Origin: an uncultured Alistipes sp.
GTDB taxonomy: Bacteria; Bacteroidota; Bacteroidia; Bacteroidales; Rikenellaceae
DNA length: 35,274 nucleotides
Assembly (NCBI GenBank): GCA_947178025.1
Contig: CAMWWU010000004.1
Coordinates: forward strand, 1-35,274
Direction: 5' to 3'
Shown here: positions 12,194 to 30,739 of the stretch, one piece after another
How positions within the stretch are numbered: the first letter of the stretch is position 1
Layout of the letters: every line of letters begins with the position of its first letter
Program-made: the position numbers and the translations under genes
The notes under the pieces: generated by a model
Databases searched by the model: none
Told to the model about the DNA's origin: nothing
What the model saw: only the letters and a program-made list of their open reading frames with translations

Positions 12194-12212
12194 TTCCTTG
12201 AATTTAATGAGA

Positions 12213-12244
12213 CAAAGATAGGTTTTTTTTGAAAAATTATCAAA
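12213..12244 (-). promoter_or_regulatory. Promoter of the LacI-family regulator gene
   Basis: Read on the minus strand, TTTG (12244-12241), a 20-base spacer and TATCTTTG (12220-12213) match the Bacteroidetes consensus. The start codon at 12193 lies 19 bases after the -7 box. Confidence 0.75.
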
Positions 12245-12250
12245 AAACGC

Positions 12251-12281
12251 TTGGAAGAAAGCCGTATTTATATTATGTTTG
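12251..12281 (+). promoter_or_regulatory. Promoter of the ribokinase/SusCD locus
   Basis: TTG (12251-12253), a 20-base spacer and TATGTTTG (12274-12281) form a Bacteroidetes-type promoter facing ribokinase. The expected start of transcription falls around 12284-12289, inside the operator, giving a leader of about 80 bases. Confidence 0.72.
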
Positions 12282-12298
12282 CACAAACGTTTGCGCAA
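12279..12298. promoter_or_regulatory. LacI-family operator overlapping the -7 box
   Basis: TTGCACAAACGTTTGCGCAA is a 20-base near-perfect palindrome with a central CG (12288/12289), the typical form of a LacI/GalR-family operator; only one symmetric pair mismatches. It covers the last three bases of the ribokinase-side -7 box and the predicted transcription start, so binding would block initiation. It lies about 35 bases upstream of the regulator's own promoter and so may leave that one largely free. Confidence 0.82.
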
Positions 12299-12365
12299 GG
12301 CTCTTTCCGACCGGAGGCCGAACGTGGGCGAAACCATGCCGCAAAAACCTTAAAACTTATCTCGA

Positions 12366-13298
12366 ATGAACCCCCGTAAAATTGTCGTCATCGGCAGCAG
12401 CAACACCGACATGGTGATTAAATCCGAGCGGCTGCCCGCTCCCGGCGAAACCGTCCTGGGCGGTACTTTTCTGATGAATCCCGGCGGAAAGGGTGCCAAT
12501 CAGGCCGTCGCAGCCGCCCGGCTGGGCGGCGATGTGACCTTTGTCTGCAAAACCGGAACCGACCTCTTCGCCCAACGTGCCGAGGAGGGTTACCGGCGCG
12601 AGGGTATCGACACCGCATTCGTATTGCGCAATGCCGACGTGCCGTCGGGCGTGGCGCTCATCACCGTCGATGCCGAAGGCGAAAACTGCATCGTCGTCGC
12701 GCCGGGTGCCAATGATACGCTTTCGCCCGCCGACATCGAGCAGGCGCGTGCCGTGATCGAATCCGCCGATCTGGTCGTCATGCAGCTTGAGATTCCGCTC
12801 GATACCGTTCTGGCGGCCGCACGCATCGCCCGCGCCGCGGGAGCGCGCGTGCTGCTCAACCCTGCGCCTGCGCCCGCCCGCCCGCTCTCCGACGAGTTGC
12901 TCTCGCTGGTCGACCTGCTGATTCCCAATCGCACCGAGGCCGAGCTGCTCTCGGGAGTCCGTATCGCGGAGTGGGAGGATGCCGAATCGGCGGCCGTCCG
13001 GCTTCATGAACGCGGCGTCGGCAGCGTGCTCATTACGCTCGGCTCGCGCGGGGCGCTCTGTTTCGACGGCATACGCCATGAGCGCATCGCATCCTGTCCG
13101 GTCAAATCCGTCGACTCGACCGGTGCGGGCGATACGTTCTGCGGTGCGCTCTGCGTGGCGCTCTCCGAAGGCCGCGACCTCGTGGCGGCGGCCCGTTTCG
13201 CTTCGCTCGTGGCGTCGATTTCGGTGACTCGGGTCGGAGCGCAGCAGGCGATCCCCTATCGGACGGAGGTGGATCGGGCGCTCGCTGCGCAATCCTGA
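12366..13298 (+). CDS. rbsK: Ribokinase (PfkB family)
   Basis: A 310-residue cytoplasmic sugar kinase converting D-ribose to ribose 5-phosphate. PfkB signature 1 is at NPGGKGANQA (38-47) and signature 2 at DSTGAGDTF (250-258), with D256 as catalytic base. The N-terminal SSNTDMV (11-17) and NPAPA (about 165-169) are also typical of ribokinase rather than fructokinase or adenosine kinase. It is the first gene after the LacI operator, with the nucleoside hydrolase and permease downstream, which supports ribose as substrate. A related PfkB substrate such as deoxyribose cannot be excluded. Confidence 0.93.
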   Translation: MNPRKIVVIGSSNTDMVIKSERLPAPGETVLGGTFLMNPGGKGANQAVAAARLGGDVTFVCKTGTDLFAQRAEEGYRREGIDTAFVLRNADVPSGVALITVDAEGENCIVVAPGANDTLSPADIEQARAVIESADLVVMQLEIPLDTVLAAARIARAAGARVLLNPAPAPARPLSDELLSLVDLLIPNRTEAELLSGVRIAEWEDAESAAVRLHERGVGSVLITLGSRGALCFDGIRHERIASCPVKSVDSTGAGDTFCGALCVALSEGRDLVAAARFASLVASISVTRVGAQQAIPYRTEVDRALAAQS

Positions 13299-13342: not shown

Positions 13343-14518
13343 ATGAGAAACCTGAACTTAAAGGTTCTCGTCTGCGCGCTCGCTTTTGCTTCGGCGGGAT
13401 GCAGCGACGAGAGCGAACCGAATGCGGTGCCTGTCGCGCCTATTCTGAAGGAAGTGGTCATGCCGGCAGAGAGCAGGGCGCTTCCCGGAACCACGGTGAC
13501 GATCTCCGGAAAGGGATTCGATGTCTCCGACAAGATTTTCTGCGAGTCGCTCGCGGAGGAGCTCGATTTCGTACCCGAAATCGAGCATGTAAACGACCAG
13601 GGCATCTCGTTCGCCATCCCGGCGGAGGCCGCTGGCCCCTATGCCGTGACGGTCGAGCGCGCCGGTTTGACGAGCCGTCTGCCCGGCGAGCTGAAAGTGC
13701 CTTATGTCATCGTCATCGAAGGGCTGTCCGTGCCTTCGGGCAACGTGGTGCGCGGCGCCGTACTCGCTGTCCGGGGCAGCGGTTTCGAAGCCGGCGACGT
13801 GGCGAACTTCTCGTCTGACGGATATCCGGGCGGTACGATCGTCGCGACGGACGTGAACGTTACGGACTCCGGTATCGAAGTGAAGATTCCCGAGTCGTGC
13901 TACGGTGTCAATACGCTGACGATCGTGCGCGGCACGCGCCAGGCCAACCTCGGCCGGGTGAATGTCTCCGTTTCGGTCGGCGACGAGGTCGGCGGCGGTA
14001 TCGTCTTCTACACCTCCGACAAGGGGCTGCACGGGCTGATCGTCAAACGGACCAACACCGGCACGCCGACCCAGCAGTGGGGGCCGACGTCGCTGCACGG
14101 AGGTACGAAAAAGGATCTTTACACCGGTAAGGAGAATACGCGCCTTTGCGTGGCCAAGATGGCCGATTTCCATCAGCAGTTCGCTACCTGGCCCGCGGAC
14201 AAGCTGTCGGCCGCCGAGCTGTGCGCCGCCGAGAGCGAAACGGTCGACGGCGTGGTTTACGACGACTGGTTCCTCCCCTCGCAGCAGGAGCTGGCGGAAC
14301 TCTTCAAGGCTCGGGCTGCCGGCCTTTTCTCGGGCGGCAAGTCTGCGGCCGATCTTCCGGCCAACAACTACTGGACGTCGACCGAGGGCGACAACGATGC
14401 CAACGCTCCGATCTGGAGCGCCTACTACGTGAATTTCTACGAAACGGAGTCGCTCGTGTCGAGCAACAGCGACAAGGAGGCTTGGCAGATCGGTATTCGC
14501 GCCATCCGTCAATTTTAG
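13343..14518 (+). CDS. Surface lipoprotein with IPT/TIG repeats and a C-terminal DUF1566/Lcl-like domain
   Basis: A 391-residue lipoprotein with lipobox ASAGC (C20). The residues after the Cys, SDESE, fit the acidic export signal that sends Bacteroidetes lipoproteins to the cell surface. Two immunoglobulin-like IPT/TIG repeats follow (about 33-120 and 121-210). The C-terminal domain (about 212-391) shows GGGIVFYTSDKGLHGL, DDWFLPSQQELAELF, NNYWTSTE and IGIRAIRQF, the pattern of DUF1566/Fib_succ_major-type domains. SusE/SusF-like glycan binding is a reasonable role, but such genes usually follow SusD; here it precedes SusC by 24 bases. It begins 44 bases after ribokinase with no separate promoter seen. 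Confidence 0.82.
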   Translation: MRNLNLKVLVCALAFASAGCSDESEPNAVPVAPILKEVVMPAESRALPGTTVTISGKGFDVSDKIFCESLAEELDFVPEIEHVNDQGISFAIPAEAAGPYAVTVERAGLTSRLPGELKVPYVIVIEGLSVPSGNVVRGAVLAVRGSGFEAGDVANFSSDGYPGGTIVATDVNVTDSGIEVKIPESCYGVNTLTIVRGTRQANLGRVNVSVSVGDEVGGGIVFYTSDKGLHGLIVKRTNTGTPTQQWGPTSLHGGTKKDLYTGKENTRLCVAKMADFHQQFATWPADKLSAAELCAAESETVDGVVYDDWFLPSQQELAELFKARAAGLFSGGKSAADLPANNYWTSTEGDNDANAPIWSAYYVNFYETESLVSSNSDKEAWQIGIRAIRQF

Positions 14519-14542: not shown

Positions 14543-17482
14543 ATGAAAAAGATACTTTTCGTGCTGACAGTCTTGCTGTTGGCCGTTACCCCCCCCCTCC
14601 GGGCCCAGAATCGGGTCGAGGGCGTGGTGATGAATGAGAATTCCGATGCGCTCGCCGGCGTCGCGGTGGTTGTCAAGGGCACGCAGCGCGGTGTGTCGAC
14701 CGATGCCCGCGGGCACTTCGCCATCGAGGCGAAGAGGGGCGAGTCGCTGCTGTTCTCCTACATGGGAATGATCGATCAGACGGTCCCCGTGGCTTCGGGC
14801 CGTATGGAGGTCCGCATGGTTTCCGACAACTTCAACCTCGACGACGTGGTGGTGATCGGTTACGGCTCGGCCAAGAAGAGCGACCTGACGGGCTCCGTGG
14901 CGTCGGTCAAGCCCGATGCGCTCAAGAACGGCAAGGTCGGCATGGTTTCGTCGGCCCTTCAGGGTGCGGCGGCCGGTGTGCAGGTGACGCAGGGGAATAT
15001 GAAGCCCGGTGCCGATGCCAGCATTCTCATCCGCGGCGCGGGCTCGATCAATGCCGGAACCGAGCCGCTCTACATCATCGACGGCGTACCCGTGCAGGGC
15101 GGTCTTCAGGATCTTTCGGCCGTCGACATCCAGTCGATCGAGATCCTCAAGGACGCGTCGTCGGCTTCGATCTACGGTTCGCGCGGTTCGAACGGCGTGG
15201 TGCTCGTGACCACGAAAAACGGTACGGCCGGCAAGACCCGCGTTTCGTTCAATGCGACGGCCGGCGTGCAGAAGCTGATGAACAAGCAGGACATGATGAC
15301 TGCTCAGCAGTACTACGATCTGATCGAATCCTCGGGTCAGAACTACACCTGGTCGTCGGCCGAGCTGCGCCATCTGAGCCGCGGCGAATCGACCGACTGG
15401 CAGGATGCCGTGACGCAGGACGGCAGCTTCCAGAACTACAGCTTCTCCGTGTCGGGCGGCGGCAAGTCGACGACCCACTATCTCGGTCTGGACTACTACG
15501 ATCAGGAGGGTACGGTCAAGAATTCGTCGTTCAACAAGTTCACCGTCCGTTACAACATGGACGCCACGCTCAACAAGTGGCTGCGCTCGGGTGTCCGCGT
15601 GAATGTCGTCGAGTCGAAGCTGATGAACATCAACGAGGAGTCCGATTCGGGCTACGGCACGATGCACAGCGCCATTACGGCCCAGCCGACGGCGCCGATC
15701 TACAACGACGACGGCAGCTATTTCGACGGCTTCCTCAATACGAAAGCCAACCCCGTGGCCATCGTCGACCTGCTCGACAAGGCGACCAAGCGCACCCGTG
15801 CCGTCGGGTCGTTCTACCTCGAACTGGAGCCCGTAGAGAATCTCCGCATCCGTTCGGACAATGCCGGCGAGCTGGTCTTCTTCAAAGTCGACGAGTATGA
15901 GGACGGCCGCATGGGCCAGCACTATACGGCCGACGGCCACGCCCGCATCATGTCCAACAAGAAGAGCTACTGGCAGACCGAGAACACCGTTACCTACGAT
16001 CTGATCCGCGAGCGTCACAAACTGACGGTCATGGGCGGCTTCTCGGCTTCGCAGGTCCGCTACGAGGAGGTGACCGCCGACTCGAAGGGGCTCGATCCCA
16101 CCACGAAGTACAACAACCTGGGCGGTGCCGCCACGCACGGCCCCAACGGCTCCTACGCTTCCGGTTCGTCGCTCGTGTCATTCTACGGCCGTGCCACCTA
16201 CAATTTCGACGAGCGCTACCTGCTGACGCTGACCATGCGCGGCGACGGCTCCTCGCGTTTCGCCCCCGGGCACCGCTGGGGCTACTTCCCCTCGCTGGCC
16301 GCCGCATGGCGTGTGTCGGAGGAGCCTTTCATGAAGAGCGCCGCATGGGTGGACAACCTCAAGGTGCGCATCAGCGCCGGTATGCTCGGCAACCAGAACA
16401 TCGGCGACTACTCCCATGCCGCACAGATCAGCCAGGGCGGTTCGGGACTCGACTACGTGTTCGGCGGAAACCTCGCTTCGGGAGCCGTCTATACGACGAT
16501 CAGCAATCCCGAGCTGACGTGGGAGAAGGCCAAGCAGCTCGATCTCGGTATCGACTTCGGGTTCCTCGGCAACCGCATCGCCGGTACGATCGAAACCTAC
16601 TACAAGCGGACGACCGATCTGCTGTGGACGGTTCCGCTGCCTTTGGAGTCGGGCTACCGCAGCTCGATGACCAACGTGGGCGTCCTCGACAACAAGGGCG
16701 TCGAGTTTACGCTCAATACGGTGAATGTCAATATGCGCAACTTCCAGTGGACTACGTCTTTCAATATCTCCTACAACCGCAACGAGATCGTCGAGCTTTA
16801 CGACGGCAAGCAGGATGTCAACAAGTCGCTCTTCGTGGGCCACTCGCTGGGCGAGTTCTACCTGCTGCACTCCGCTGGCATTTGGCAGATTCCCGATGCC
16901 GAGCAGGCTGCCGCATACGGAGCCTATCCGGGCGACCGCAAGATCTACGATCGCGACGGGAATAACGTCATCAACGGCGAGGACCGCATGTTCGCCGGCC
17001 AGAGCACCCCGACGTGGTTCGGCGGTCTGACCAACACGTTCCGCTTCTACGGTGTCGACCTCACGCTCTTCATGAACTTCGCGGGCGGTCACAAGATCAA
17101 CAACTCGCTGCTGCGTTCGCAGAACTCCTACAATGTCTGGGGCAACATGAGCAAGGACTACTACGAGGGTTATTGGCGCATCGACCGTCCGAGCGACGTC
17201 TATCCGGCTCCGCGCGTGGGCAGCGCCTATGCCAACGGCGATGGTACGGACGCCAACCTGCAGGATGGCAAATACCTACGCATCAAGAACCTCGAAATCG
17301 GCTATACGCTGCCGAAGCGCTGGACCGACGCGATCCGCGCCAGCAGCGTCCGCCTCTTCTTCTCGGTGCAGAACCTGGCCACGTTCACCGGCTACACGGG
17401 CTATGACGTGGAGGCTTGGGACAACACCAATCCTTATCCCGGATCGCGCAGCTACATCGGCGGGATCTCCGTCAATTTCTAA
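14543..17482 (+). CDS. SusC-like TonB-dependent outer-membrane transporter
   Basis: A 979-residue outer-membrane importer. A signal peptide (1-21, ending PPLRA) is followed by a carboxypeptidase-D-like regulatory domain (about 24-95, VEGVVMNENSDALAGV), a TonB-box-like DDVVVIGYG (about 100-108), the plug domain with IRGAGSINAGTEPLYIIDGVP (in pieces) and a large beta-barrel ending in GGISVNF with the terminal Phe. It forms the import gate with the SusD partner encoded 22 bases downstream. Length is normal for the class. The imported substrate is unknown from this protein alone; context suggests ribose-containing molecules. Confidence 0.96.
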   Translation: MKKILFVLTVLLLAVTPPLRAQNRVEGVVMNENSDALAGVAVVVKGTQRGVSTDARGHFAIEAKRGESLLFSYMGMIDQTVPVASGRMEVRMVSDNFNLDDVVVIGYGSAKKSDLTGSVASVKPDALKNGKVGMVSSALQGAAAGVQVTQGNMKPGADASILIRGAGSINAGTEPLYIIDGVPVQGGLQDLSAVDIQSIEILKDASSASIYGSRGSNGVVLVTTKNGTAGKTRVSFNATAGVQKLMNKQDMMTAQQYYDLIESSGQNYTWSSAELRHLSRGESTDWQDAVTQDGSFQNYSFSVSGGGKSTTHYLGLDYYDQEGTVKNSSFNKFTVRYNMDATLNKWLRSGVRVNVVESKLMNINEESDSGYGTMHSAITAQPTAPIYNDDGSYFDGFLNTKANPVAIVDLLDKATKRTRAVGSFYLELEPVENLRIRSDNAGELVFFKVDEYEDGRMGQHYTADGHARIMSNKKSYWQTENTVTYDLIRERHKLTVMGGFSASQVRYEEVTADSKGLDPTTKYNNLGGAATHGPNGSYASGSSLVSFYGRATYNFDERYLLTLTMRGDGSSRFAPGHRWGYFPSLAAAWRVSEEPFMKSAAWVDNLKVRISAGMLGNQNIGDYSHAAQISQGGSGLDYVFGGNLASGAVYTTISNPELTWEKAKQLDLGIDFGFLGNRIAGTIETYYKRTTDLLWTVPLPLESGYRSSMTNVGVLDNKGVEFTLNTVNVNMRNFQWTTSFNISYNRNEIVELYDGKQDVNKSLFVGHSLGEFYLLHSAGIWQIPDAEQAAAYGAYPGDRKIYDRDGNNVINGEDRMFAGQSTPTWFGGLTNTFRFYGVDLTLFMNFAGGHKINNSLLRSQNSYNVWGNMSKDYYEGYWRIDRPSDVYPAPRVGSAYANGDGTDANLQDGKYLRIKNLEIGYTLPKRWTDAIRASSVRLFFSVQNLATFTGYTGYDVEAWDNTNPYPGSRSYIGGISVNF

Positions 17483-17504
17483 AACGTAAATCAAGACAAG
17501 AATC

Positions 17505-18929
17505 ATGAAAAAACTGATATATGCTGCGGCTTGTCTGCTGACCGTCGTCGCCGTCTCCTGCGAAAGTTTCCTCGACGAAACGCCCAAGAGCACGCTGACC
17601 CCGCAGAACTCTTTCAAGGACGAGGCAGACTGGAACAAGACCCTGACGGCGGCCTACGGATCGTTGCAGAACATCACTGCCGGCTTCGAGGCCAAGTATG
17701 CCATCACGCTGGGCGAGTTCGGCACCGACGAGGTGATCCCCTTCGACCTGGGGTGGGCCGCCTATGCCGAGCTGCACTACTATACGTTCTCGGCGCAGCA
17801 CGCCTTTCTGGACAACCACTACGGGCACTGCTACGATGGCGTCAAGCGATGCAATATCGTGATCGATATGCCGGCCGATGCCGCCGTGAGCAGCTCCGCC
17901 CGCACGATGATGATCGCACAGGCCCGGTTCCTGCGTGCGCTCTTCTATTTCGACCTGGTGCGCATGTACGGCGGCGTGCCCCTCTGGACCTCGGGTTCGG
18001 TGGATCGCGACCAAATCATGAAGCCGCGCGCCACGGCCGACGAGGTGTACGACCTGATCGTCTCGGATCTGCGCGCCGCGGCCTCCGTGCTGCCCGCGAA
18101 GTGGTCGGAGAACTCCGACAAGGGCCGCGCCACCTCCTATGCCGCGAACGCCATCCTGGGCCGCGTGCTGTTGCAGTGGGGGCGTCCTGCCGAGGCGCTC
18201 GCCGCCCTCGACCTGGTTTACGGCAAGTTCCGTCTTTACGACGACTACTCCTTCATCTTCTCGCCCGCGCATAAGAACGAGGAGATCGAGAATATCTTCG
18301 AGGTGCAGTTCCGCCACTCGGGCAAGTGGGGCGAGGAGGGTTCGCTCCAACACAGCTACTGGGGCCCGCGCGGGGTCGGCGGCCCGACCGCTTTCGGCGG
18401 CTGGGGCGGCTTCGGAGCTTCGCAGTACCTCTACGACAGCTATGCCGACAACGACCGTCGCAAGCAGGCCTTCTTCTGGACCGAGTTCGGAGGCATCCGT
18501 CAGGATCCGCCGTGCATCAGGAAGTTCTGGGACGAGAACTACGGCAACGAGATCGAGAACGACGACCTGAATTTCATCTACATGCGTTATGCCGACGTGT
18601 TGCTGATGCGTGCCGAGGCGCTGAATGCCGTGAACGACGCGACGAATGCCAAATACGACTGTCTGAACGAGGTGCGCCGTCGTGCGGGAGTCGCCGAGGT
18701 CTTTTCGGAGACCAACGAGCGGTTCGCTGAGATCCTGCTCGAAGAGCGTATGAAGGAGCTCTGCTGCGAGCATCTGCGCCGCTTCGACCTGATCCGTTTC
18801 GGCAAGCTCGCGCAGCAGGTGCGTCTTGCGCACGGTGTCGAGGTGCGCGATCACCACGTGCTTTATCCCATTCCGCAGAGTGCGATGGACGCCAACGATG
18901 CGATTACGGAGAACAATCCGGGTTATTGA
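17505..18929 (+). CDS. SusD/RagB-like surface lipoprotein
   Basis: A 474-residue lipoprotein with Cys at about 19 (TVVAVSCES) and an acidic stretch soon after (ESFLDETP), consistent with surface display. N-terminal DEADWNKTLTAAYGSL, ARFLRALFYFDLVRMYGGVPLW (in pieces) and C-terminal VLYPIPQSAMDAN with NNPGY are SusD-family hallmarks; the TPR-like helices lie in the first half. SusD proteins cap the SusC barrel and bind the substrate. The spacing to SusC (22 bases) and the pairing are standard. Confidence 0.96.
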   Translation: MKKLIYAAACLLTVVAVSCESFLDETPKSTLTPQNSFKDEADWNKTLTAAYGSLQNITAGFEAKYAITLGEFGTDEVIPFDLGWAAYAELHYYTFSAQHAFLDNHYGHCYDGVKRCNIVIDMPADAAVSSSARTMMIAQARFLRALFYFDLVRMYGGVPLWTSGSVDRDQIMKPRATADEVYDLIVSDLRAAASVLPAKWSENSDKGRATSYAANAILGRVLLQWGRPAEALAALDLVYGKFRLYDDYSFIFSPAHKNEEIENIFEVQFRHSGKWGEEGSLQHSYWGPRGVGGPTAFGGWGGFGASQYLYDSYADNDRRKQAFFWTEFGGIRQDPPCIRKFWDENYGNEIENDDLNFIYMRYADVLLMRAEALNAVNDATNAKYDCLNEVRRRAGVAEVFSETNERFAEILLEERMKELCCEHLRRFDLIRFGKLAQQVRLAHGVEVRDHHVLYPIPQSAMDANDAITENNPGY

Positions 18930-18955: not shown

Positions 18956-20578
18956 ATGAAAACGACATTTCGATTTGCCTGCGCCCTGTTGTTCGTCGCA
19001 GCGGCCGGATGCGAAAAAGAGGGCGGTCAGCGCCTGGCCGATGTCGAACTCGGTCGCACGACGGTGGAGAACGGTGTGGTGACGGTGGTGCCGACCGAAT
19101 ACTATCAGGCTTTCCGCAACCCGATGAAGGGGCTGCGCGAGTTCTTCGGTCCGGGATACGACAAGAAACGCGATGAATACCCCTATCCCTACGGTTCGAT
19201 CATCAAGGAGTACATGCAGTGGAACATGATGGAGGATGTCGAGTCGGATGGCGTGGACAAGGTGATCGCCTACAGCGACCATCGCTGGGAGGGCGTCGAG
19301 GATATGAACGTCAAGGTGATTCCGCGTCCGTTCATCATCTGGATGGAGCCCTACGAGGGCGGATACCCGAAGAACACCTACACGAACCATCCCGACGATC
19401 TGAACGGCTGGCACTGGCCTTCGGACTTCCCGATGGAGGTGCGTTCGGCCGACGACAATACCCCTTCGACAGGCGGTTACTTCGATCCGCGGTTTCAGGA
19501 TCGCATGAAGAAGCTCGTTGCCAAACTGGGCGAGGCGTGGGACAACGATCCGCGCGTGGCCTATGTCGAGATGGGGCTCATCGGCGAGTGGGGCGAGCAT
19601 CACGATCCCAACGTTACGACCGTATGGCTGCCCCACACGCAGTCGTTCCATGTGGCCAACCGCACCTGGATTCCGGGTATCGAGAAGACCCTGGGCGATG
19701 CGTTCCGCGACGCTTTCAAGAACAAGAAGGTGATGGTCCGCTACGCTTACGAGTTCGAGGACTACGACTTCGGCATCTACTGGGATTCGTGGGCTATCGA
19801 CGAGGAGCTGGAGCGAGGTTACAATGCCATGGTCAAGCGCGGCGACTATTGGCGCGATCAGGTCGTGGGCGGCGAGATCACCTGGAACTGGGGCTCGCTG
19901 ATGGCCAACGGCTACAAGAGCTTCGAGGATTGCGTGGCCGACACCGGAACCCGTGCCCTGGTGCTGGAGCAGATCCGCACGCTGCACTGCAACCACCTGG
20001 GCGGCATCACGTGGGCCAACTTCAAGGATCAGCAGTTCCAGACCAATGCCGCTACGATACAGAAGGCGCTCGGCTATCGTTTCGTGATCCGGCAGTTCAG
20101 CTATCCGACGCGCATCGAGCGCGGCGTGCCGTTCGAGGTGAAACTCGACGTGGTGAACACGGGTTCTTCGCCCTTCTATTACGACTGGCCCGTGGAGGTG
20201 GCGCTGCTCGATGCCGAAACGCATGAAAAGGTGTGGGGTGCGACGCTCGACGACGTACATGTCTCGCAGTGGATGCCCGGCGACCGGTGGGACAAGGCCA
20301 AGAACTGCTATGCGGTGCCGGCGGAGGTGAACGAGGTGGCCGGCACGCTGACCCTCGATGAGGATCTGGCTCCCGGCAAGTACATCGTGTCGGTCGCCGT
20401 ACTCGACCCGGCGGGCATGCTCCCCTCGCTGCGCTTCGCGGCCATGAACTACTTTACGGGAGGCCGCCATCCGATGGGTTACGTCGGCGTGGGGGCTGAG
20501 AGCGACGAGTATGCGCTGACCTACGGTTTCGACGATATCCAGGCCGATAAGACGCTGCACTATGTCGTCGAGAAATAG
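18956..20578 (+). CDS. DUF4832-type lipoprotein, copy 1 (putative TIM-barrel glycosidase-like)
   Basis: A 540-residue lipoprotein with Cys19 (AAAGC) followed by EKE, partly acidic, so surface exposure is possible. The N-terminal part (about 50-370) looks like a TIM barrel of the DUF4832/DUF4874 type, with RNPMKG, YPYPYGS, VAYVEMGLIGEWGEHH (201-216) and GGEITWNWGS (305-314). Conserved Glu205, Glu211 and Glu307 sit at strand ends, as in retaining clan-A glycosidases, but their role is unproven. A C-terminal beta-sandwich (about 385-520, NTGSSPFYYDWP) completes it. No biochemical function is established for the family to my knowledge. A close paralogue follows with a 17-base overlap. Confidence 0.82.
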   Translation: MKTTFRFACALLFVAAAGCEKEGGQRLADVELGRTTVENGVVTVVPTEYYQAFRNPMKGLREFFGPGYDKKRDEYPYPYGSIIKEYMQWNMMEDVESDGVDKVIAYSDHRWEGVEDMNVKVIPRPFIIWMEPYEGGYPKNTYTNHPDDLNGWHWPSDFPMEVRSADDNTPSTGGYFDPRFQDRMKKLVAKLGEAWDNDPRVAYVEMGLIGEWGEHHDPNVTTVWLPHTQSFHVANRTWIPGIEKTLGDAFRDAFKNKKVMVRYAYEFEDYDFGIYWDSWAIDEELERGYNAMVKRGDYWRDQVVGGEITWNWGSLMANGYKSFEDCVADTGTRALVLEQIRTLHCNHLGGITWANFKDQQFQTNAATIQKALGYRFVIRQFSYPTRIERGVPFEVKLDVVNTGSSPFYYDWPVEVALLDAETHEKVWGATLDDVHVSQWMPGDRWDKAKNCYAVPAEVNEVAGTLTLDEDLAPGKYIVSVAVLDPAGMLPSLRFAAMNYFTGGRHPMGYVGVGAESDEYALTYGFDDIQADKTLHYVVEK

Positions 20579-22199
20579 GTTGGCGGCGGCATTCGCACTG
20601 TGCGCCTTCGTTTGCGCAGGCTGTGCGGGGCGGGGGACTCCCGCCCGCTACACGGCCGCGTGCGACGAAGGCCGCGTGCGTGTCCGGATGGTCGAATACG
20701 AACCCGCCCTGCGCAATCCGATGAAAGGATTCCGGGAGTTCTTCATGATCGGCACTGACCGACGGCGTGCGGAGTATCCCTATCCCTACGGTTCGCTCGT
20801 CAAGGAGTACATGCAGTGGAACATGCTCGAAAACGTCGAGTCGGACGGCGTAGAGAAGATCGTCGCCTACAGCGACCGCCGCTGGCAGGGCGTCGAGGAG
20901 CAGAATGTGAAGGTTATTCCGCGCGTGCTGCTCGTGTGGGTCGAGCCGTGGCACGGAGGATGGGCCAAGGACGAGGCCAATCCCGACGATCTGAACGGCT
21001 GGCACTGGCCCTCGGACCTACCCGGCGAGACGGGGCCCTACAAGCAGATTCCGGGTTCGGTCGGCGCCTATGTCGAGCCGCAGGATTCGCTGACGACGAT
21101 CCGGGGCGGATATTTCGATCCGTCGTTTCCGGAGCGTGTGAGGAGGCTCGTCGCCAAGCTGGGCGAAGCGTGGGACGACGATCCGCGCGTGGCTTATGTC
21201 GAGATGGGCATCGTCGGCGAATGGGGCGAACACCATGACCCCGACCTGTCGACCCTCTTCGCGCCGCACGACGAGCCGCGGCATGTCGACGGCCGCACGT
21301 GGATTCCGGGCATGCAGCAGGTGCTGGGCGATGCGTTCCGCGATGCTTTCAGGAACAAGAAAGTGATGGTGCGTTATGCCTACGAGTTCGAGGATTACGA
21401 CTTCGGCATCTACTGGGACTCGTGGTCTCAGCCCGAGGAGCAGCAGCGCGGGTACGACGCGATGTTGCGCCGCGGCGACTACTGGCGCACGCAGCCCGTG
21501 GGCGGCGAGATCACCTGGAACTGGGGATCGCTGGCCCGCTATCCGAGTTTCGAGGCGGTGGTGGCCGACGACACGACCCGGCGTTTCGTCGTGGAGCAGA
21601 TCCGCAACCTGCACTGCAACCATCTGGGAGGCATCACATGGGCCGACTTCGACGATCCGGTATTCGCACGGAATGCCGCCGAGCTGCAAAAGGCGATGGG
21701 GTATCGTTTCGTGCTGGACGAGGCGGACTATCCCTGCCGGATCGAGGCGGGCGAGCCGTTCGGGGTGACCTTCTCGCTGCGCAATACGGGCTCTTCGCCC
21801 TTCTATTACGACTGGCCTGCGGAGGTGGCGCTGCTCGATGCCGCGACGCACGAAAAGGTGTGGGGCGCGACGCTCGACGACGTGCGCATCTCGCAGTGGA
21901 TGCCCGGCGAGGAGTGGGATGCCGACCGACAGGCTTACCGCAAGGCCCCCGAATCGGTGACGGTGCGGGCGCAGCTCGTGGCGGAGGGTGTCGCCGCCGG
22001 ACGTTATATCCTGGCACTGGGAGTTCTCGATCCTGCCTGCGGCCGTCCGACGCTGCGTTTCGCCAATACCAACTATTTTACGGGCGGCTATCATCCGCTC
22101 GGGTATGTCGGAGTCGGCGTGCCGGAGAGCGATCCCGCGCTCGATCCCGCATGTTTCGACGATTTGCAAAGCGATACTACATTGAATTACAAAATCTAA
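20562..22199 (+). CDS. DUF4832-type lipoprotein, copy 2 (tandem paralogue)
   Basis: A 545-residue paralogue of the preceding protein, sharing long identical blocks such as VRYAYEFEDYDFGIYWDSW and GGEITWNWGSL. The putative active-site Glu residues are kept (E214, E220, E316). The start at 20562 overlaps the previous gene by 17 bases and gives a good lipobox (AFVCAGC, C21). The residues after this Cys, AGRGTPARY, are not acidic, unlike copy 1, so it may stay on the periplasmic face. It carries an insertion of about 20 residues near 155-180 (GPYKQIPGSVGAY region) absent from copy 1. The C-terminal domains are nearly identical even at DNA level (about 20160-20290 against 21785-21915). Confidence 0.82.
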   Translation: MSSRNRLAAAFALCAFVCAGCAGRGTPARYTAACDEGRVRVRMVEYEPALRNPMKGFREFFMIGTDRRRAEYPYPYGSLVKEYMQWNMLENVESDGVEKIVAYSDRRWQGVEEQNVKVIPRVLLVWVEPWHGGWAKDEANPDDLNGWHWPSDLPGETGPYKQIPGSVGAYVEPQDSLTTIRGGYFDPSFPERVRRLVAKLGEAWDDDPRVAYVEMGIVGEWGEHHDPDLSTLFAPHDEPRHVDGRTWIPGMQQVLGDAFRDAFRNKKVMVRYAYEFEDYDFGIYWDSWSQPEEQQRGYDAMLRRGDYWRTQPVGGEITWNWGSLARYPSFEAVVADDTTRRFVVEQIRNLHCNHLGGITWADFDDPVFARNAAELQKAMGYRFVLDEADYPCRIEAGEPFGVTFSLRNTGSSPFYYDWPAEVALLDAATHEKVWGATLDDVRISQWMPGEEWDADRQAYRKAPESVTVRAQLVAEGVAAGRYILALGVLDPACGRPTLRFANTNYFTGGYHPLGYVGVGVPESDPALDPACFDDLQSDTTLNYKI

Positions 22200-22209
22200 A
22201 GCTTTTTCC

Positions 22210-23220
22210 ATGAAACGACTTCCGATTCTTCTGTTCGTGTTGTTGCTGGCCGTTTCCTGCGGCCGTCGCACGGCCGAGGAGCACCCCGTCCGAATTATTT
22301 TCGATACGGATCTGGGCAACGATATCGATGACGTGCTGGCGCTCGAAATGCTGCTCAACTACGAGCGGGAGGGCCGGGCCGAACTGCTGGGCGTGACGCT
22401 CTGCAAGGCCAATCCCCATACCGCCGAGTTCGCCGACGGCTATCTGCGGGCCGCCGGTCGCGGCGACATGCCGCTGGGCTTCGCCCATCGGGGCGTGACG
22501 CCCGAGGACGGGAGCTATCTGCTGCCGACGCTCGGTGCGTCGTTCGACGGGCAGCCGCTGCTCAGTCCCGAGCGCACGGCCGACGAGCTGCCCGAAGGTT
22601 ATGTGCTGCTGCGGCAGCTGCTGGCGCAGCAGCCCGATGCGTCGGTCGTACTCGTCGCCGTGGGGCCGTTGACCAACATCGGCAATCTGCTCGCGAGCGA
22701 GGCTGACGAGATCTCACCCCTCGCGGGGCGTGAACTGGTGGCGGCCAAAGTGAAGCGCGTGGTGACGATGGCCGGCTTGTTCGGCGACGAATTCGATTTC
22801 CCGGAGTGGAATGTCATGTGCGACGTCGAGGCGGCGCAGCGGACCTTCCATCTCTGCCCCGTGATGCTGACGACGACCGGCTGGGAGGTCGGCAACCGCT
22901 TGCTCTATCCGCACGAGAGCATCCTGAACGACTTCGGCGATCCCGAGGCCAGTCCCCTGGCGGTGGCTTACTGCCACTATATGGAGATGCCCTACGATCG
23001 GCAGACGTGGGATCTGACCGCCGTGCTGGAGGCCGTGGAGCCCGGCGTGTGGTTCGACCGCTCGCCCCGGGGCCGGATCCGGATCGCTGATGACGGTCGG
23101 AGTACGCTCGACGTGGCGGCGGAGGGCGTGCAGGATTATCTGATCATTCCGCAGGAACGCACGGCGGCGGCTCTGGAGGCGCTCGTCGCCCGGACTGCGG
23201 GTAAAACGCCGGAGCAATGA
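22210..23220 (+). CDS. Lipoprotein nucleoside hydrolase (IUNH family)
   Basis: A 336-residue enzyme of the inosine-uridine nucleoside hydrolase family, which splits nucleosides into base and ribose. The N-terminal calcium-binding Asp cluster DTDLGNDIDDVLALEML lies at about 32-48. VGPLTNIGNLL (about 155-165) and the later MCDVEAAQRTF (about 205-215, normally N-x-x-x-D-P-x-A) follow. A lipobox gives Cys17 (LAVSC) with GRR after it, so a periplasmic lipoprotein is predicted; most characterised family members are cytoplasmic. It sits between the DUF4832 pair and GH97 and overlaps the latter's start by four bases. Released ribose would enter through the permease and be phosphorylated by ribokinase. 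Confidence 0.9.
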   Translation: MKRLPILLFVLLLAVSCGRRTAEEHPVRIIFDTDLGNDIDDVLALEMLLNYEREGRAELLGVTLCKANPHTAEFADGYLRAAGRGDMPLGFAHRGVTPEDGSYLLPTLGASFDGQPLLSPERTADELPEGYVLLRQLLAQQPDASVVLVAVGPLTNIGNLLASEADEISPLAGRELVAAKVKRVVTMAGLFGDEFDFPEWNVMCDVEAAQRTFHLCPVMLTTTGWEVGNRLLYPHESILNDFGDPEASPLAVAYCHYMEMPYDRQTWDLTAVLEAVEPGVWFDRSPRGRIRIADDGRSTLDVAAEGVQDYLIIPQERTAAALEALVARTAGKTPEQ

Positions 23221-25175
23221 GACGCTGGGTGATCGCACTGCTGGCGCTGGCAGCCCTGCTGCCGGCCTCGGCCGGCCGGCGGCCGCTGGCGAGTGTCCTG
23301 TCTCCCGACGGTAAAAACCGGGTGGAGGTGTCGTTCGACGGCGGGACGCTGTGTTACGAAGTATTCCGCAACGACGACCGGATTCTGGCGCCGTCGCCCC
23401 TTTCGATGAGCGTCGAAGGGCGGACGTGGGGCGCCGATGCCCGGCCTCGCAAGGTCGTGCGGCGGCGTGTGGAACGCGTAGACCGGCCGGTCGTACCCCG
23501 CAAGAGCGCCGAGCTTCGCGATGCCTATTGCGAGGCGGCGCTCCATTTCCGCGGATACCGTGTCGAGGTGCGTGCTTATGACGACGGCGTGGCTTATCGC
23601 TTCGTCGGCACGACGCCCGAAGAGGGGCGTGTCGAACGCGAGCAGGTCTGTTATCGCTTCGATGGCGATTACCCCTCGCTAACGCTGCTGACCAAGGAGT
23701 TGCAGAATTGGTTCGAGGAGGATTACACCGAGCGGAGGCTCGGGGCGCTGCCTGCCGACAGCATGTCGATCGCGCCGGTCATGGTGCGTGTCGGCCGCTA
23801 TGGGGTGCTGCTCGCCGAGGCGAATCTGTACAGCTATCCGGGCCTTTACCTGCATCCTGCGGGGCTGGGTTTCGAGGGGGTTCAGGCCGCCTATCCGAGC
23901 CGGGAGGAGTTTCGCGACGGCACGAACAAGCTCTATGCCGTCGAGCGCGAACCGTGGCTCGTGAAGTGCGGGCTCGATCGGGCTTTCCCGTGGCGCGTGA
24001 CGGGGATCTTCGACGATGACGCCTCGATGCTCGCCAGCGACCTGGTTTACCTGCTCTCCGAGAAGAGCGACCGCGACTATGCGTGGGTTCGGCCGGGCAA
24101 GGTGCTTTGGGACTGGTGGAATCATAACAATATCTACGGTGTCGATTTCGAGGCCGGCATCAATACGGCGACTTACCTCTATATGGTCGATTTCGCTGCG
24201 GAGCACGGCATCGAGTATCTGCTCATCGACGAGGGGTGGTCGGGACGCGACGACCTGCTGACGCTCGCTCCCGGCGTGGATATTCCTGCCGTCTGCCGCC
24301 ATGCGGCCGAAAAAGGCGTCGGCATCCTGCTGTGGGCCAAGTGGATCAATGTGGACCGGCAGCTCGACGAGGCATTCGAACGGATGGCTTCGTGGGGTGT
24401 GCGCGGCGTGAAGATCGACTTCATGGACCGCAACGACGCCCGAATGGTCGACTTCTACGAGCGGGTGGCCCGCAAGGCCGAGGAGTGTCGGCTGCTGATC
24501 GATTTCCACGGCTCCTATCCCAACGAGGGAATGCGGGCGAAGTATCCGCTGCTGATGACCCGCGAGGGAGTGGTCGGCCTGGAGTATAACAAGTGGAGCG
24601 AGCGTGCGACGCCGCGCCACGATCTGATCATTCCGTTCCTGCGCATGTGGGTCGGCCCGATGGACTACACGCCGGGCGCCATGCTCAATGCGCAGCCCGA
24701 GTCGTTCCGGATCAGCCATGTCGAGCCGATGAGCCAGGGTACGCGGGCCCATCAGCTGGCCATGTACGTCGTCTACGAGAGTCCGTTGCAGATGCTTTCG
24801 GACAGTCCGACGAAGTACCTCGAAAACCCCGAGTCGTTCGCATTTCTGAAGCAGGTGCCGACCGTCTGGGACGAGACCCGTCCGCTGTTCGGCACCGTCG
24901 GAAGCAACGTCGGCGTGGCACGTCGCAGCGGCGACATGTGGTTCGTCGGCGTGATGGGCGGCAGCGAGGCGCAGTCGCTCGCGGTCGATCTTTCGTTCCT
25001 CGGCGGGGGAGTGTGGGAGATGACCCAGTGGGCCGACGGTGCGAATGCCGCGACGAACGGCAAGGACTGCCGCCGCAGCGCGCTGCGGGTGACTGCTGCC
25101 GACCGGATTCCCGTGGCCCTGGCGCCCGGTGGCGGTTTTGCGGCGGTGATCCGCCGGGGAAGCGGCGCCGAATGA
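23217..25175 (+). CDS. GH97 glycoside hydrolase, retaining (alpha-galactosidase-like) type
   Basis: A 652-residue periplasmic enzyme with a signal peptide (MRRWVIALLALAALLPASAG). An N-terminal beta-sandwich (about 25-270) is followed by the catalytic barrel (about 290-560, VLWDWWNHNNIYGVDFEAG and LLIDEGWSG) and a C-terminal beta domain. VKIDFMDR places Asp401, and GLEYNKW places Glu456, 55 residues apart. In the retaining GH97 alpha-galactosidase of Bacteroides thetaiotaomicron the nucleophile and acid/base have the same spacing (Asp415, Glu470, from memory), whereas inverting SusB has Gly at the first site. A retaining enzyme on an alpha-galactoside or beta-L-arabinopyranoside is therefore inferred. 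The start overlaps the nucleoside hydrolase stop (ATGA). Confidence 0.92.
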   Translation: MRRWVIALLALAALLPASAGRRPLASVLSPDGKNRVEVSFDGGTLCYEVFRNDDRILAPSPLSMSVEGRTWGADARPRKVVRRRVERVDRPVVPRKSAELRDAYCEAALHFRGYRVEVRAYDDGVAYRFVGTTPEEGRVEREQVCYRFDGDYPSLTLLTKELQNWFEEDYTERRLGALPADSMSIAPVMVRVGRYGVLLAEANLYSYPGLYLHPAGLGFEGVQAAYPSREEFRDGTNKLYAVEREPWLVKCGLDRAFPWRVTGIFDDDASMLASDLVYLLSEKSDRDYAWVRPGKVLWDWWNHNNIYGVDFEAGINTATYLYMVDFAAEHGIEYLLIDEGWSGRDDLLTLAPGVDIPAVCRHAAEKGVGILLWAKWINVDRQLDEAFERMASWGVRGVKIDFMDRNDARMVDFYERVARKAEECRLLIDFHGSYPNEGMRAKYPLLMTREGVVGLEYNKWSERATPRHDLIIPFLRMWVGPMDYTPGAMLNAQPESFRISHVEPMSQGTRAHQLAMYVVYESPLQMLSDSPTKYLENPESFAFLKQVPTVWDETRPLFGTVGSNVGVARRSGDMWFVGVMGGSEAQSLAVDLSFLGGGVWEMTQWADGANAATNGKDCRRSALRVTAADRIPVALAPGGGFAAVIRRGSGAE

Positions 25176-25281: not shown

Positions 25282-26289
25282 ATGTATATTGTAGGCAACT
25301 ATTTTACGGCGGTCGTATTCTGTCTGATTACGATGCTGTGCTGGGGTTCGTGGGGCAATACGCAGAAACTCGCTTCGAAGAGCTGGCGTTACGAACTCTT
25401 CTATTGGGATTACGTGATCGGCATGGTGCTCTTCGCGCTGGCGCTGGGTCTGACGATGGGCAGCACGGGCGATGCGGGCCGTTCGTTCCTCGCCGATCTG
25501 GGGCAGGCCGAATGGGCAGCCGCGGGATGCGTGCTGCTGGGCGGCGTGATCTTCAACGCCTCGAACATCCTGCTCTCGGCCTCGGTGTCGCTCGCGGGCA
25601 TGGCCGTGGCCTTCCCGCTGGGCGTGGGTATCGCGCTGGTGTTGGGCGTTGTGGTCAACTATATCGGCGCGCCTTCGGGAAACGCATCGGCGCTCTTCGC
25701 GGGCGTGGCTCTCATCGTGCTGGCCATCGTCTGCAACGGCATCGCCTCGGGGCGTATGTCGCAGGGCGAGGAGGATCGCCGGAACAACCGCAAAGGGTTG
25801 TGGCTCGCGCTGGCGGCCGGCGTGCTGATGTCGCTCTTCTACCGCTTCGTGGTGATGGGCATGGATGTCGAGAACTTCCAGTCGCCCGCCGCAGGGATGC
25901 TGACCCCCTATTCGGCGATCTTCGTCTTCTCGCTCGGCGTGCTGGCCAGCAATCTCCTCTTCAATACGCTGGTCATGCGCCGTCCGTTCGTCGGCGAGCC
26001 CGTGAGCTACCGTGCCTACTTCGGCGGATCGCTGCCGACGCACCTCGTAGGCATGCTGGGCGGTGCCGTGTGGTGTCTCGGTACGGCCTTCAGCTATATC
26101 GCTTCGGGCGAGGCCGGGCCGGCTATCTCCTATGCGCTCGGACAGGGCGCTCCGATGGTCGCCGCCGTGTGGGGAGTCTTCGTCTGGAAGGAGTTTCGGG
26201 GGGCGTCGATGCTTGTGAAGCGGCTGCTGGCCCTCATGTTCGTGCTCTTCGTGGGCGGGCTGGCACTCATTATCTCCGCCGGCAACTGA
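25282..26289 (+). CDS. Inner-membrane sugar permease, DMT/GRP (RhaT/GlcU-like) type; probable ribose transporter
   Basis: A 335-residue integral membrane protein with about ten helices arranged as two five-helix halves. It starts MYIVGNYFTAVVFCLITMLCWGSWGNTQKL; the CWGSWGNT stretch is the hallmark of the Bacteroidetes sugar permeases in the drug/metabolite superfamily. SVSLAGMAVAFPLGVGIALV and SYALGQGAPMVAAVWGVFVWKEF (in pieces) are the conserved glycine-rich helices. Placed last in the locus, it would carry the released sugar into the cytoplasm for ribokinase. Rhamnose or another monosaccharide is an alternative substrate; ribose follows from context only. Confidence 0.85.
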   Translation: MYIVGNYFTAVVFCLITMLCWGSWGNTQKLASKSWRYELFYWDYVIGMVLFALALGLTMGSTGDAGRSFLADLGQAEWAAAGCVLLGGVIFNASNILLSASVSLAGMAVAFPLGVGIALVLGVVVNYIGAPSGNASALFAGVALIVLAIVCNGIASGRMSQGEEDRRNNRKGLWLALAAGVLMSLFYRFVVMGMDVENFQSPAAGMLTPYSAIFVFSLGVLASNLLFNTLVMRRPFVGEPVSYRAYFGGSLPTHLVGMLGGAVWCLGTAFSYIASGEAGPAISYALGQGAPMVAAVWGVFVWKEFRGASMLVKRLLALMFVLFVGGLALIISAGN

Positions 26290-26356: not shown

Positions 26357-27790
26357 TTATTTCGCGGCGTTCGAGCGCCACAGGGCGGACATCTCCTCCA
26401 GCGTCTTGCCCTTCGTTTCGGGCACCCAGCGCCAGACGAAGATCGCCGAGGCGAGCGACATCAGCGCATAGAGGCAGTAGGTGCCGCCGATGCTCCAGGC
26501 GCTCAGCGAGGGGAACGTGGCCGAGACGAGGAAGTTCGAGATCCACTGCGCCGCGACGGCGATGGCCACGGCCTGCGAACGGATCGTGTTGGGGAAGATT
26601 TCGGCGATGAGCACCCAGCAGATCGGGCCCCACGACATCATGAACGAAGCCGTATAGATGATGATGAAGACGAGGGCCGCCAGGCCGATCGAGTCGGTGA
26701 ACGAGAGTGCGGCCAGCGCGACCATACCGATCATCATGCCGGCCGAACCGATGATGAGCAGCGGCTTGCGGCCCACCTTGTCGACGGTGAAGATCGCCAC
26801 GACGGTGAAGAGGATGTTGACGATGCCCATCACGACCGTCTGCACCATCGATGCGTCGCCCGTGGCGCCCATGTTCTCGAAGATGCGCGGTGCGTAGTAG
26901 AGCACGACGTTGATGCCGACGGCCTGCTGGAAGAACGAGAGCAGCACGCCGATCGCGATCACGGCGACGCCGTAGGCGAAGAGCCGTTCGCGCTTCTCGT
27001 GCACCGTGGCTTTGATGTCGGCCAGGATCGAGCGGGCCTCCTCGCTGCCGTTGATGCGTGCGAGGATCGAGAAGGCACGGTCGTCGCGGCCCCTCAGGGC
27101 GAGGAAGCGCGGCGTCTCGGGGACGAGCAGTACGAGCAGTCCGAATGCGCCGGCCGGGAAGGCCTCGCTGACGAACATCCGGCGCCAGCCGATGGCGTTC
27201 ATGGCGCTTTGGATGGCTTCGGAGGTGTCGCCCAGCGAATTGCGGATCAGGTAGTTGACGAAGTATACGACCAGCATGCCGAAGATGATGGCGAACTGAT
27301 TGCACGATACGAGCGTGCCGCGGATGCGTGCGGGCGAGATCTCGGCGATGTACATCGGGCAGACGGCCGAGGCCAGTCCGACGCCGATGCCGCCCAGGAT
27401 GCGGTAGAGGTTGAAGACGACGAGCAGCGTCTTCGACGCTTCGCCGTAGGGCAGGATGCCGCTTTCGGGGCACCACGAGCCGACGGCCGAGATGAAGAAC
27501 ATGATCGCCGCGGCGATGAGCGAGCGTTTGCGGCCCAGGCGCGACGCCATCAGGCCCGAGATCGCGCCGCCGATGACGCAGCCGAGCAGGGCGCTCGAAG
27601 CCGTGAATCCGTGCCACCCCGAGGTGTAGAGGTCGCCCAGACCGTTGCGGAAGAAGTTTTCGAGGGCTTTCTCGGCTCCCGATACCACGGCGGTGTCGTA
27701 GCCGAAGAGCAGTCCGCCGATGATCGCCACCAGAACGATGGAGAAGAGGTAGAGACGGCTGCCCTGTGTGTTGGTTTGTGTCGAAGTCAT
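26357..27790 (-). CDS. xylE: XylE-like D-xylose:proton symporter (MFS sugar porter)
   Basis: A 477-residue, twelve-helix MFS sugar porter. The signatures are GGLLFGYDTAVVSGA near the N-terminus, the GRKRSL loop, PETPRFLALRGR after helix 6, the sugar-binding FQQAVGINVVLYYAPRI in helix 7, and the C-terminal PETKGKTLEEMS. The neighbourhood (xylose isomerase and xylulokinase) makes xylose the likely substrate. It is the last gene of the xylose operon, separated from xylA by 107 bases that contain two hairpins, and it ends on the shared terminator. Confidence 0.94.
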   Translation of the reverse strand: MTSTQTNTQGSRLYLFSIVLVAIIGGLLFGYDTAVVSGAEKALENFFRNGLGDLYTSGWHGFTASSALLGCVIGGAISGLMASRLGRKRSLIAAAIMFFISAVGSWCPESGILPYGEASKTLLVVFNLYRILGGIGVGLASAVCPMYIAEISPARIRGTLVSCNQFAIIFGMLVVYFVNYLIRNSLGDTSEAIQSAMNAIGWRRMFVSEAFPAGAFGLLVLLVPETPRFLALRGRDDRAFSILARINGSEEARSILADIKATVHEKRERLFAYGVAVIAIGVLLSFFQQAVGINVVLYYAPRIFENMGATGDASMVQTVVMGIVNILFTVVAIFTVDKVGRKPLLIIGSAGMMIGMVALAALSFTDSIGLAALVFIIIYTASFMMSWGPICWVLIAEIFPNTIRSQAVAIAVAAQWISNFLVSATFPSLSAWSIGGTYCLYALMSLASAIFVWRWVPETKGKTLEEMSALWRSNAAK

Positions 27791-27809
27791 AGGTTGTCAG
27801 GTTGGTTGG

Positions 27810-27872
27810 GTTGCCGGCCTTCGGGCCGGAAAAATACCCGGCGCCCGGACCTCTTCCGGGGAAGAGATCCGG
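27810..27872. repeat. Two hairpins in the xylA-xylE gap
   Basis: The 107-base gap holds CCGGCC-TTCG-GGCCGG (about 27815-27830) and a longer imperfect stem, CCGGA-C-CTCTTC (27845-27856) with GAAGAG-A-TCCGG (27861-27872). On the transcribed minus strand neither is followed by a T-run. They may stabilise the xylA 3' end or limit read-through into xylE. Confidence 0.5.
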
Positions 27873-27897
27873 GGCGGGTGTGCGGATGCGGTCGGAA

Positions 27898-29211
27898 TTA
27901 TACGTACATGTTCACGATCGCCTCGTAGAGCTCCTGCTTGCCGCTGTGGGGCACGGGCTCGTGGGTGCGGGCGTACTCGGCCACCTGCTCCAGGGTCAGC
28001 TTGCCCTCTTCGAACGCCTTGCCTTCGCCGGCGTCGTAGGAGGCGTAGCGGTCGGCGAGCATCCGGGTGTAGGGCGAGTTTTCGAGGATGTCGGCAGCGA
28101 TCAGCAGCGCGCGGGCCATGACGTCCATCGCGGCGATGTGGGCGATGAAGAGGTCTTCGGGGTCGGTCGAGTTGCGGCGCGTCTTGGCGTCGAAGTTCGT
28201 GCCGCCGCCCTGGAGGCCGCCGCCGCGGATGATGACCAGCATGGCCTGCACCATCTCGTAGAGGTCGATCGGGAACTGGTCGGTATCCCAGCCGTTCTGG
28301 TAGTCGCCGCGGTTGGCGTCGATCGATCCGAGCATGCCGTTGTCGACGGCGCACTGCAACTCGTGCTCGAAGGTGTGGCCGGCCAGCGTGGCGTGGTTGA
28401 CTTCGATGTTCACCTTGAAATCCTTCTCCAGACCGTGGGCCTTCAGGAAGCCGACGACGGTCTCGGTGTCGACGTCGTACTGGTGCTTCATCGGCTCCAT
28501 GGGCTTGGGCTCGATCAGGAAGTTGCCCTTGAAGCCCTTCGAACGGGCGTAGTCGCGGGCCATCGTCAGCATCGTGGCCATGTGCTCCTTCTCGCGCTTC
28601 ATGTCGGTGTTGAGCAGCGACATGTAACCCTCGCGGCCGCCCCAGAAGACGTAGTTTTCACCGCCCAGCTCGATCGTGGCATCGATGGCGTTCTTGATCT
28701 GCAGCATGGCGCGGGCCGCCGTGTCGAAATCGGGGTTGGTCGAGGCGCCGTTCATGTAGCGGCCGTTCGAGAAGACGTTGGCCGTGCCCCACAGCAGCTT
28801 GATGCCCGTTTCGGCCTGCTTCTGCTTGGCGTAGGCTACGATCTCCTTGAGGTTCTTCTCGTACTCCTCGACCGTGGCGGCCTCGTCCACGAGGTCTACG
28901 TCGTGGAAGCAGTAGTACTCGATGCCCATCTTCTGCATGAACTCGAAGCCGGCGTCCATCTTGGCCTTGGCGCGCTCCATGGGGCAGGCCGACTCGTTCC
29001 AGGGGAACTGCTTCGTGCCGCCGCCGAACTGGTCGCCGCCCTCGGCGCAGAGGGTGTGCCACCAGGCCATCGAGAAGCGGAACCAATCCTTCATCTTGCG
29101 GCCGGCTACGACCTGCTCGGGATTGTAGTAGCGGAAGGCCATCGGGTTCTTCGACTCCTTGCCTTCGAATGCGATCTTACCCACGGAGGGGAAATACTCT
29201 TTTGTTGCCAT
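27898..29211 (-). CDS. xylA: Xylose isomerase
   Basis: A 437-residue cytoplasmic enzyme converting D-xylose to D-xylulose. It is full-length for the long (class II) type and begins [20 protein letters not shown]. The catalytic His/Asp lie in [10 protein letters not shown] (about 100-109), metal ligands in [16 protein letters not shown] (about 230-245) and [19 protein letters not shown] (about 298-316). It follows xylB by 30 bases in the order regulator, xylB, xylA, xylE, as known in Bacteroides. Confidence 0.98.
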
Positions 29212-29241
29212 AGTTTTTATTTGTTATTAAGTGTATGCGAA

Positions 29242-30726: not shown

Positions 30727-30739
30727 TGGTCGGTTGAAA

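Follow-up and report, generated by a model that had tools for sequence, protein, structure and literature searches.

Two tandem DUF4832 lipoproteins, D1 and D2, encoded on a 35,274-nucleotide stretch of DNA from an uncultured Alistipes sp. (the window), are members of an anciently duplicated pair that, with a probability that we put at roughly 0.6, divides the work of a ribose-utilisation PUL. In the proposed scheme, D1 would face outward beside the SusD and TIG proteins and make the first cuts in a ribose-containing glycan. SusC/SusD systems are importers of glycan fragments, and SusCD would take up the fragments made by D1. D2 would face the periplasm together with a protein of the nucleoside hydrolase family, joined in Bacteroidales by a GH97 enzyme, and there the fragments would be trimmed and ribose released; a RhaT-like carrier and ribokinase would then feed the ribose into metabolism. 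D1 and D2 are both proposed to be retaining glycosidases resembling clan GH-A, their catalytic residues being E214/E307 in D1 and E223/E316 in D2. Action before and after import by SusCD, as we infer it here, fits the operon.

The genes of the locus are listed in Table 1. The GH97 protein keeps the nucleophile D401 in a K-x-D-F-M motif (at the aligned position, the 5e1q chain has Gly and 3a24 has Asp), and its NCBIfam equivalog score of 622.7 is below the cut-off of 800. A 519-aa ORF at 10673-12232 (+) was rejected as spurious, as its translation is of low complexity and without a family match and the LacI gene lies on the opposite strand; it looks like a high-GC shadow ORF. The locus is neighboured by a minus-strand xylose cluster (26357-31486) composed of a XylE transporter, xylose isomerase, a xylulokinase-like kinase and a NUDIX/AraR-type regulator, and a GH43 gene (31833-33476, +) comes next after this cluster. 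The plus-strand ORFs overlying the cluster have no family match and look spurious as well.

Table 1. Genes of the DUF4832 locus (positions in the window) and fused reading frames of related loci (locus handle:positions)
Feature	Position	Strand	Remarks
LacI-family regulator	11165-12337	-	divergent from operon; best NCBIfam hits are RbsR (ribose repressor) models, scoring below cut-off
Ribokinase (pfkB family)	12366-13298	+	TIGR02152, 364.5 bits (cut-off 299.65)
IPT/TIG-domain lipoprotein, probable surface glycan-binding protein	13343-14518	+	CSDESE at the Cys, a Bacteroides export signal (PMC6222051)
SusC-type TonB-dependent importer	14543-17482	+	TIGR04056, 848.8 bits
SusD-type surface lipoprotein	17505-18929	+	CESFLDE; PF07980, PF14322
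D1, DUF4832 lipoprotein, predicted surface-facing	18956-20578	+	540 aa; C-EKEGG; candidate catalytic E214, E307
D2, DUF4832 lipoprotein, predicted periplasmic	20562-22199	+	545 aa; C-AGRGTPAR; candidate catalytic E223, E316; PYK loop
Nucleoside hydrolase family lipoprotein	22210-23220	+	PF01156; C-GRRTAEE; fused to D2 elsewhere
GH97, retaining alpha-galactosidase type	23217-25175	+	PF10566, PF14508, PF14509; periplasmic type (signal peptide, no lipobox)
RhaT/ureide-permease-like inner-membrane sugar carrier	25282-26289	+	last gene of the operon
D2-nucleoside hydrolase single ORFs (844-864 aa)	L012:11636-14191; L014:11636-14191; L018:11617-14151; L028:9905-12499; L029:8136-10712
Nucleoside hydrolase-GH97 single ORF (958 aa)	L007:14608-17484

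The ORFs of D1 and D2 overlap by 17 bases, and both proteins are full-length, with 62% identity over 519 aa. Both score above the cut-off of 29.2 bits for DUF4832 (PF16116; 59.1 bits for D1 and 49.0 bits for D2), which bears out the earlier note's description of tandem DUF4832 paralogues, and the same profile matches all 50 of 50 homologues at E values up to 1. The N-termini (...FVAAAG-C-EKEGGQR in D1 and ...FVCAG-C-AGRGTPAR in D2) confirm the contrast of EKE and AGRGTPAR after the lipid-bearing Cys to which that note had drawn attention. Three Glu residues that it had singled out as shared are indeed all present in both copies, but since 122 alignment columns are invariant across the 50 homologues, their presence alone is uninformative. 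DUF4874 (PF16173) reaches 14.2 bits, below its cut-off of 30.1, with a match only around the WGE motif, and homology to this half is visible by profile alignment only. By that means, proteins with a DUF4874-DUF4832 architecture (PF16173 plus PF16116) show end-to-end homology with the D1/D2 subfamily (probability 99.5) at about 18% identity and have the GxxGxWGE and GGE motifs in common with it; unlike them, the D1/D2 subfamily has E205 and E211 as additional invariant residues and is tied to SusCD.

A scan of 84,980 species genomes yielded 29 related loci across Bacteroidota, including Alistipes, Bacteroides congonensis, Dysgonomonas, Mariniphaga, several Chitinophagaceae and Sphingobacterium. 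In about 22 of the 29, D1 and D2 are adjacent and have the same neighbours, and the order ribokinase-TIG-SusC-SusD-D1-D2-NH-RhaT(-GH97), where NH is the nucleoside hydrolase, is found in about 22 loci from Bacteroidales, Marinilabiliales, Chitinophagaceae and Sphingobacterium. Since GH97 occurs in 11 loci only (none was seen in the loci of Chitinophagaceae or Sphingobacterium, some of which are incomplete), the core consists of SusCD, TIG, D1, D2, NH, ribokinase and RhaT. The locus is rare: within the window's genus, 3 of 61 genomes (the window's own among them) carry a close pair, and of 393 genomes sampled across the order, only the window's own has it. A search of a plasmid collection returned no relatives. 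The pair is not obligatory: D1 occurs without D2 in L013, and D2 has no D1 nearby in L026, L028 and L029.

In a tree of 50 sequences from which the N-termini were left out (24 D1 and 26 D2 rows), D1 and D2 form two groups split by a 100/99 branch, indicating that the duplication is old. The duplication predates the dissemination of the locus among these orders, which horizontal transfer of entire cassettes may have aided. L028 (6130-12499) and L029 (7379-10712) both have a D2-NH fusion, no D1 or SusD nearby and an adjacent nitroreductase gene, and in L028 a TonB-dependent receptor is located upstream of the fusion. These D2-NH loci without D1 possibly serve a different substrate.

The earlier note had placed the two copies on different faces of the outer membrane because of the residues that follow the Cys. 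The surface export signal of B. thetaiotaomicron is CS(D/E)2 (PMC6222051) and that of Capnocytophaga is C-X-K-(D/E)2, where K plus a single E is weak (about 16% surface-positive cells; PMC5080379). D1 (CEKEGG), with two acidic residues separated by Lys, is a weak match to the published signals and not a textbook one; its Alistipes relatives, with CAKDDG and CSKDNG, follow the Capnocytophaga pattern. Within the operon, the TIG protein (CSDESE) and SusD (CESFLDE) differ in this region from the nucleoside hydrolase (CGRRTAE) and from GH97, which lacks a lipobox. We calibrated the signal on the SusD loci of the window's own genome, where each of the 23 readable SusD N-termini has between one and three acidic residues within +2 to +6, unlike D2.

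Among the related loci, a loose form of the rule (at least two acidic residues near the lipid Cys) holds for 16/24 D1s and 2/19 D2s. In the 17 loci with a Cys in both copies, acidic residues at +2 to +7 are more numerous in D1 in 13, more numerous in D2 in none and tied in four (sign test, p=2.4e-4), and counting at +2 to +6 gives 12 to 3 (p=0.035); both p-values are optimistic since the compared loci are related. The lipobox Cys is never lost in D1, whereas it is gone from seven D2 rows (L026 being the least certain), corresponding to four changes on the tree.

A single ORF with one signal peptide encodes both D2 and the nucleoside hydrolase in L012, L014, L018, L028, L029 and the broken L030; among the rows that the tree includes, this takes three changes. 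The predicted structure of the L014 fusion has a pLDDT of 85, and its C-terminal part matches nucleoside hydrolases. In L007, a nucleoside hydrolase is fused to GH97; the neighbours of this ORF are another, divergent nucleoside hydrolase-like gene, a CotH-like gene, a GDSL lipase and one gene that matches no Pfam family. Together, the two kinds of fusion make a shared compartment probable for D2, nucleoside hydrolase and GH97, and the usual lipobox-free signal peptide of GH97 marks this compartment as the periplasm, where GH97 enzymes such as SusB act. The fusions are the strongest argument for a periplasmic D2 and do not depend on the acidic-residue rule; they also provide a sequence-based readout of compartments in PULs.

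It is conceivable that both copies sit on one face, be it the periplasm or the surface, and differ in the position or linkage that they attack in the substrate, the residues after the Cys merely reflecting neutral drift. The EKE of D1 is indeed weak as an export signal by the published tests (PMC5080379), acidic residues at +2 to +6 are scarce in the D1s of Chitinophagaceae (CSKLGPE, CQKIKPE), acidic patches exist in some D2s (CKEDM in L015, CTSDQE in L010), and a loop specific to D2 (see below) would be enough to explain why both copies were retained. However, the anchor has been lost repeatedly and in D2 only, the acidic excess has the same direction in 13/13 untied pairs, and the nucleoside hydrolase is fused to D2 alone, so that we consider a common face unlikely. 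The prediction of two faces would be weak from one genome, whereas the 29 related loci support it well: the old duplication, the anchor loss, the D2-NH fusions and the acidic excess of D1 all favour a D1 that probably faces outward and a D2 that probably faces the periplasm.

An insert beginning with PYK, located after D1 position 161, is present in 26/26 D2s and 0/24 D1s; conversely, D1 residues 141-142 are absent from all 26 D2s. The insert is situated between barrel strand 3 and helix 3, on what is the catalytic-face side of a barrel. Since every D2 and no D1 has it, the copies are probably not the same enzyme acting twice, and this part of the earlier proposal has become doubtful. The shape of the cleft probably differs between the copies, with the D2 loop probably turning an open cleft into a pocket, which would fit an endo-acting D1 at the surface and an exo-acting D2 in the periplasm.

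The predicted structure of D1 has a mean pLDDT of 89, and its best matches in the PDB are GH5 endoglycoceramidase, GH30 xylanases, GH35 and GH157 (probability 1.00). Judged from this model, D1 resembles clan GH-A glycosidases with their TIM barrel. The barrel proposed earlier is supported by the fold matches, which are mostly of GH-A type, but the full-chain Foldseek TM-scores are low (about 0.3-0.4, with an rmsd above 10). The clan members have a barrel plus beta-sandwich, as predicted for D1, and Glu at strands 4 and 7, as the candidate Glu of D1; D1 differs from them in its lack of a sequence match, the missing Asn before the strand-4 Glu and the low global TM-score.

As a sequence search of solved structures, with single and profile queries, gave no match, the catalytic Glu residues were placed through the distant family alignment instead. 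All 18 aligned sequences, distant DUF4874-DUF4832 members included, retain E214 (in WGE, past strand 4) and E307 (in GGE, on strand 7); in the D1 model, E214 is nine residues past strand 203-205 and E307 forms the end of strand 304-307. Glu205 and Glu211 were rejected as general catalytic residues because the distant members have Q/D and I/A/T/M there. Glu211, previously suggested together with Glu307, therefore gives way to E214, which fits better, while Glu307 is retained, and the likely catalytic pair is E214/E307 in D1 and E223/E316 in D2.

Inactive GH scaffolds serve as glycan-binding proteins in some PULs, and one or both copies could likewise be non-catalytic, a GH-like barrel acting as a surface glycan-binding protein. 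A barrel of this kind could support SusD and the TIG protein, both already present in the locus, and the portions of the literature that were searched report no activity for DUF4832. Nevertheless, neither clade shows any variation in E214, E307, R124 or the WGE and GGE motifs, and distant relatives show almost none, whereas catalytic residues are usually lost in binding proteins. A dockerin-bearing DUF4874-DUF4832 protein is, moreover, known from a cellulosome (PMC7480376). A purely binding role is therefore quite improbable, and we continue to regard D1 and D2 as putative glycosidases.

The ribokinase, the RbsR-like regulator and the nucleoside hydrolase family protein point to ribose, and the accessory genes of variant loci (GH97, GH127, GH3, GH109-type and acetylesterase, in the few loci scanned) suggest a decorated glycan. 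In L010, a GH127 beta-L-arabinofuranosidase-type gene (16653-18554) follows the DUF4832 locus in the usual place of GH97, hinting at substrate variants. The substrate might also be nucleoside-like (glycosylated nucleosides or nucleic-acid fragments) rather than a glycan, with D1 and D2 stripping a sugar or another group ahead of the nucleoside hydrolase; this concerns the substrate and is compatible with two faces. The fusion of D2 to a nucleoside hydrolase, the ribokinase and RbsR-like regulator of the locus, and the scavenging of ribose and nucleosides by BT2803-2809 of B. thetaiotaomicron, the type case of the ribose-utilisation systems (RUS; PMC12596196), would all agree with such a substrate. 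On the other hand, the conserved genes yielded no nuclease or nucleotidase, the accessory genes point to a glycan, and nucleoside hydrolases are also able to split O-ribosides, 4-nitrophenyl riboside for example (PMC8910321). A nucleoside-like substrate seems possible but less likely than not.

As to which ribose-containing glycan is involved, the O-polysaccharide of Klebsiella O4 consists of alpha-galactose and beta-ribofuranose, [4)-alpha-Galp-(1-2)-beta-Ribf-(1] (PMC11231755). The pair might represent a new GH family that splits ribofuranosyl bacterial glycans of this kind, with D1 as surface endo-enzyme, D2 as periplasmic exo-enzyme, the nucleoside hydrolase as O-ribosidase and GH97 removing alpha-galactose. 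This is a guess, and quite an improbable one in its particulars.

D1 and D2 appear to be sister enzymes kept as a pair across distant bacteria, with one copy apparently made for the cell exterior and the other for the periplasmic side of the outer membrane. Two paralogues in one operon, followed across a phylum, constitute a natural experiment in lipoprotein sorting, in which D1 is always lipid-anchored with acidic residues and D2 repeatedly loses its anchor. Since DUF4832 is bracketed here by an importer, a nucleoside hydrolase, a ribokinase and a ribose-type regulator, its function is directly testable.

On gene content, the locus belongs with the RUS of Bacteroidota, as it holds SusCD, ribokinase, nucleoside hydrolase and a carrier (RhaT-like, with ribose transport presumed). 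In RUS PULs, ribokinase and nucleoside hydrolase likewise occur together with SusC/SusD and an inner-membrane carrier of ribose, a comparison by gene list with BT2803-2809 and RusT of B. thetaiotaomicron as the reference. The DUF4832 pair, the TIG lipoprotein, GH97 and the LacI-type regulator go beyond that system. In the Sus starch system, SusG is located outside and SusA and SusB inside, SusB belonging to GH97. By analogy, the locus described here would also arrange a surface hydrolase and periplasmic hydrolases around SusCD; however, the outer and inner enzymes of Sus are not so close a tandem pair, whereas here they would be paralogues of one DUF4832 family.
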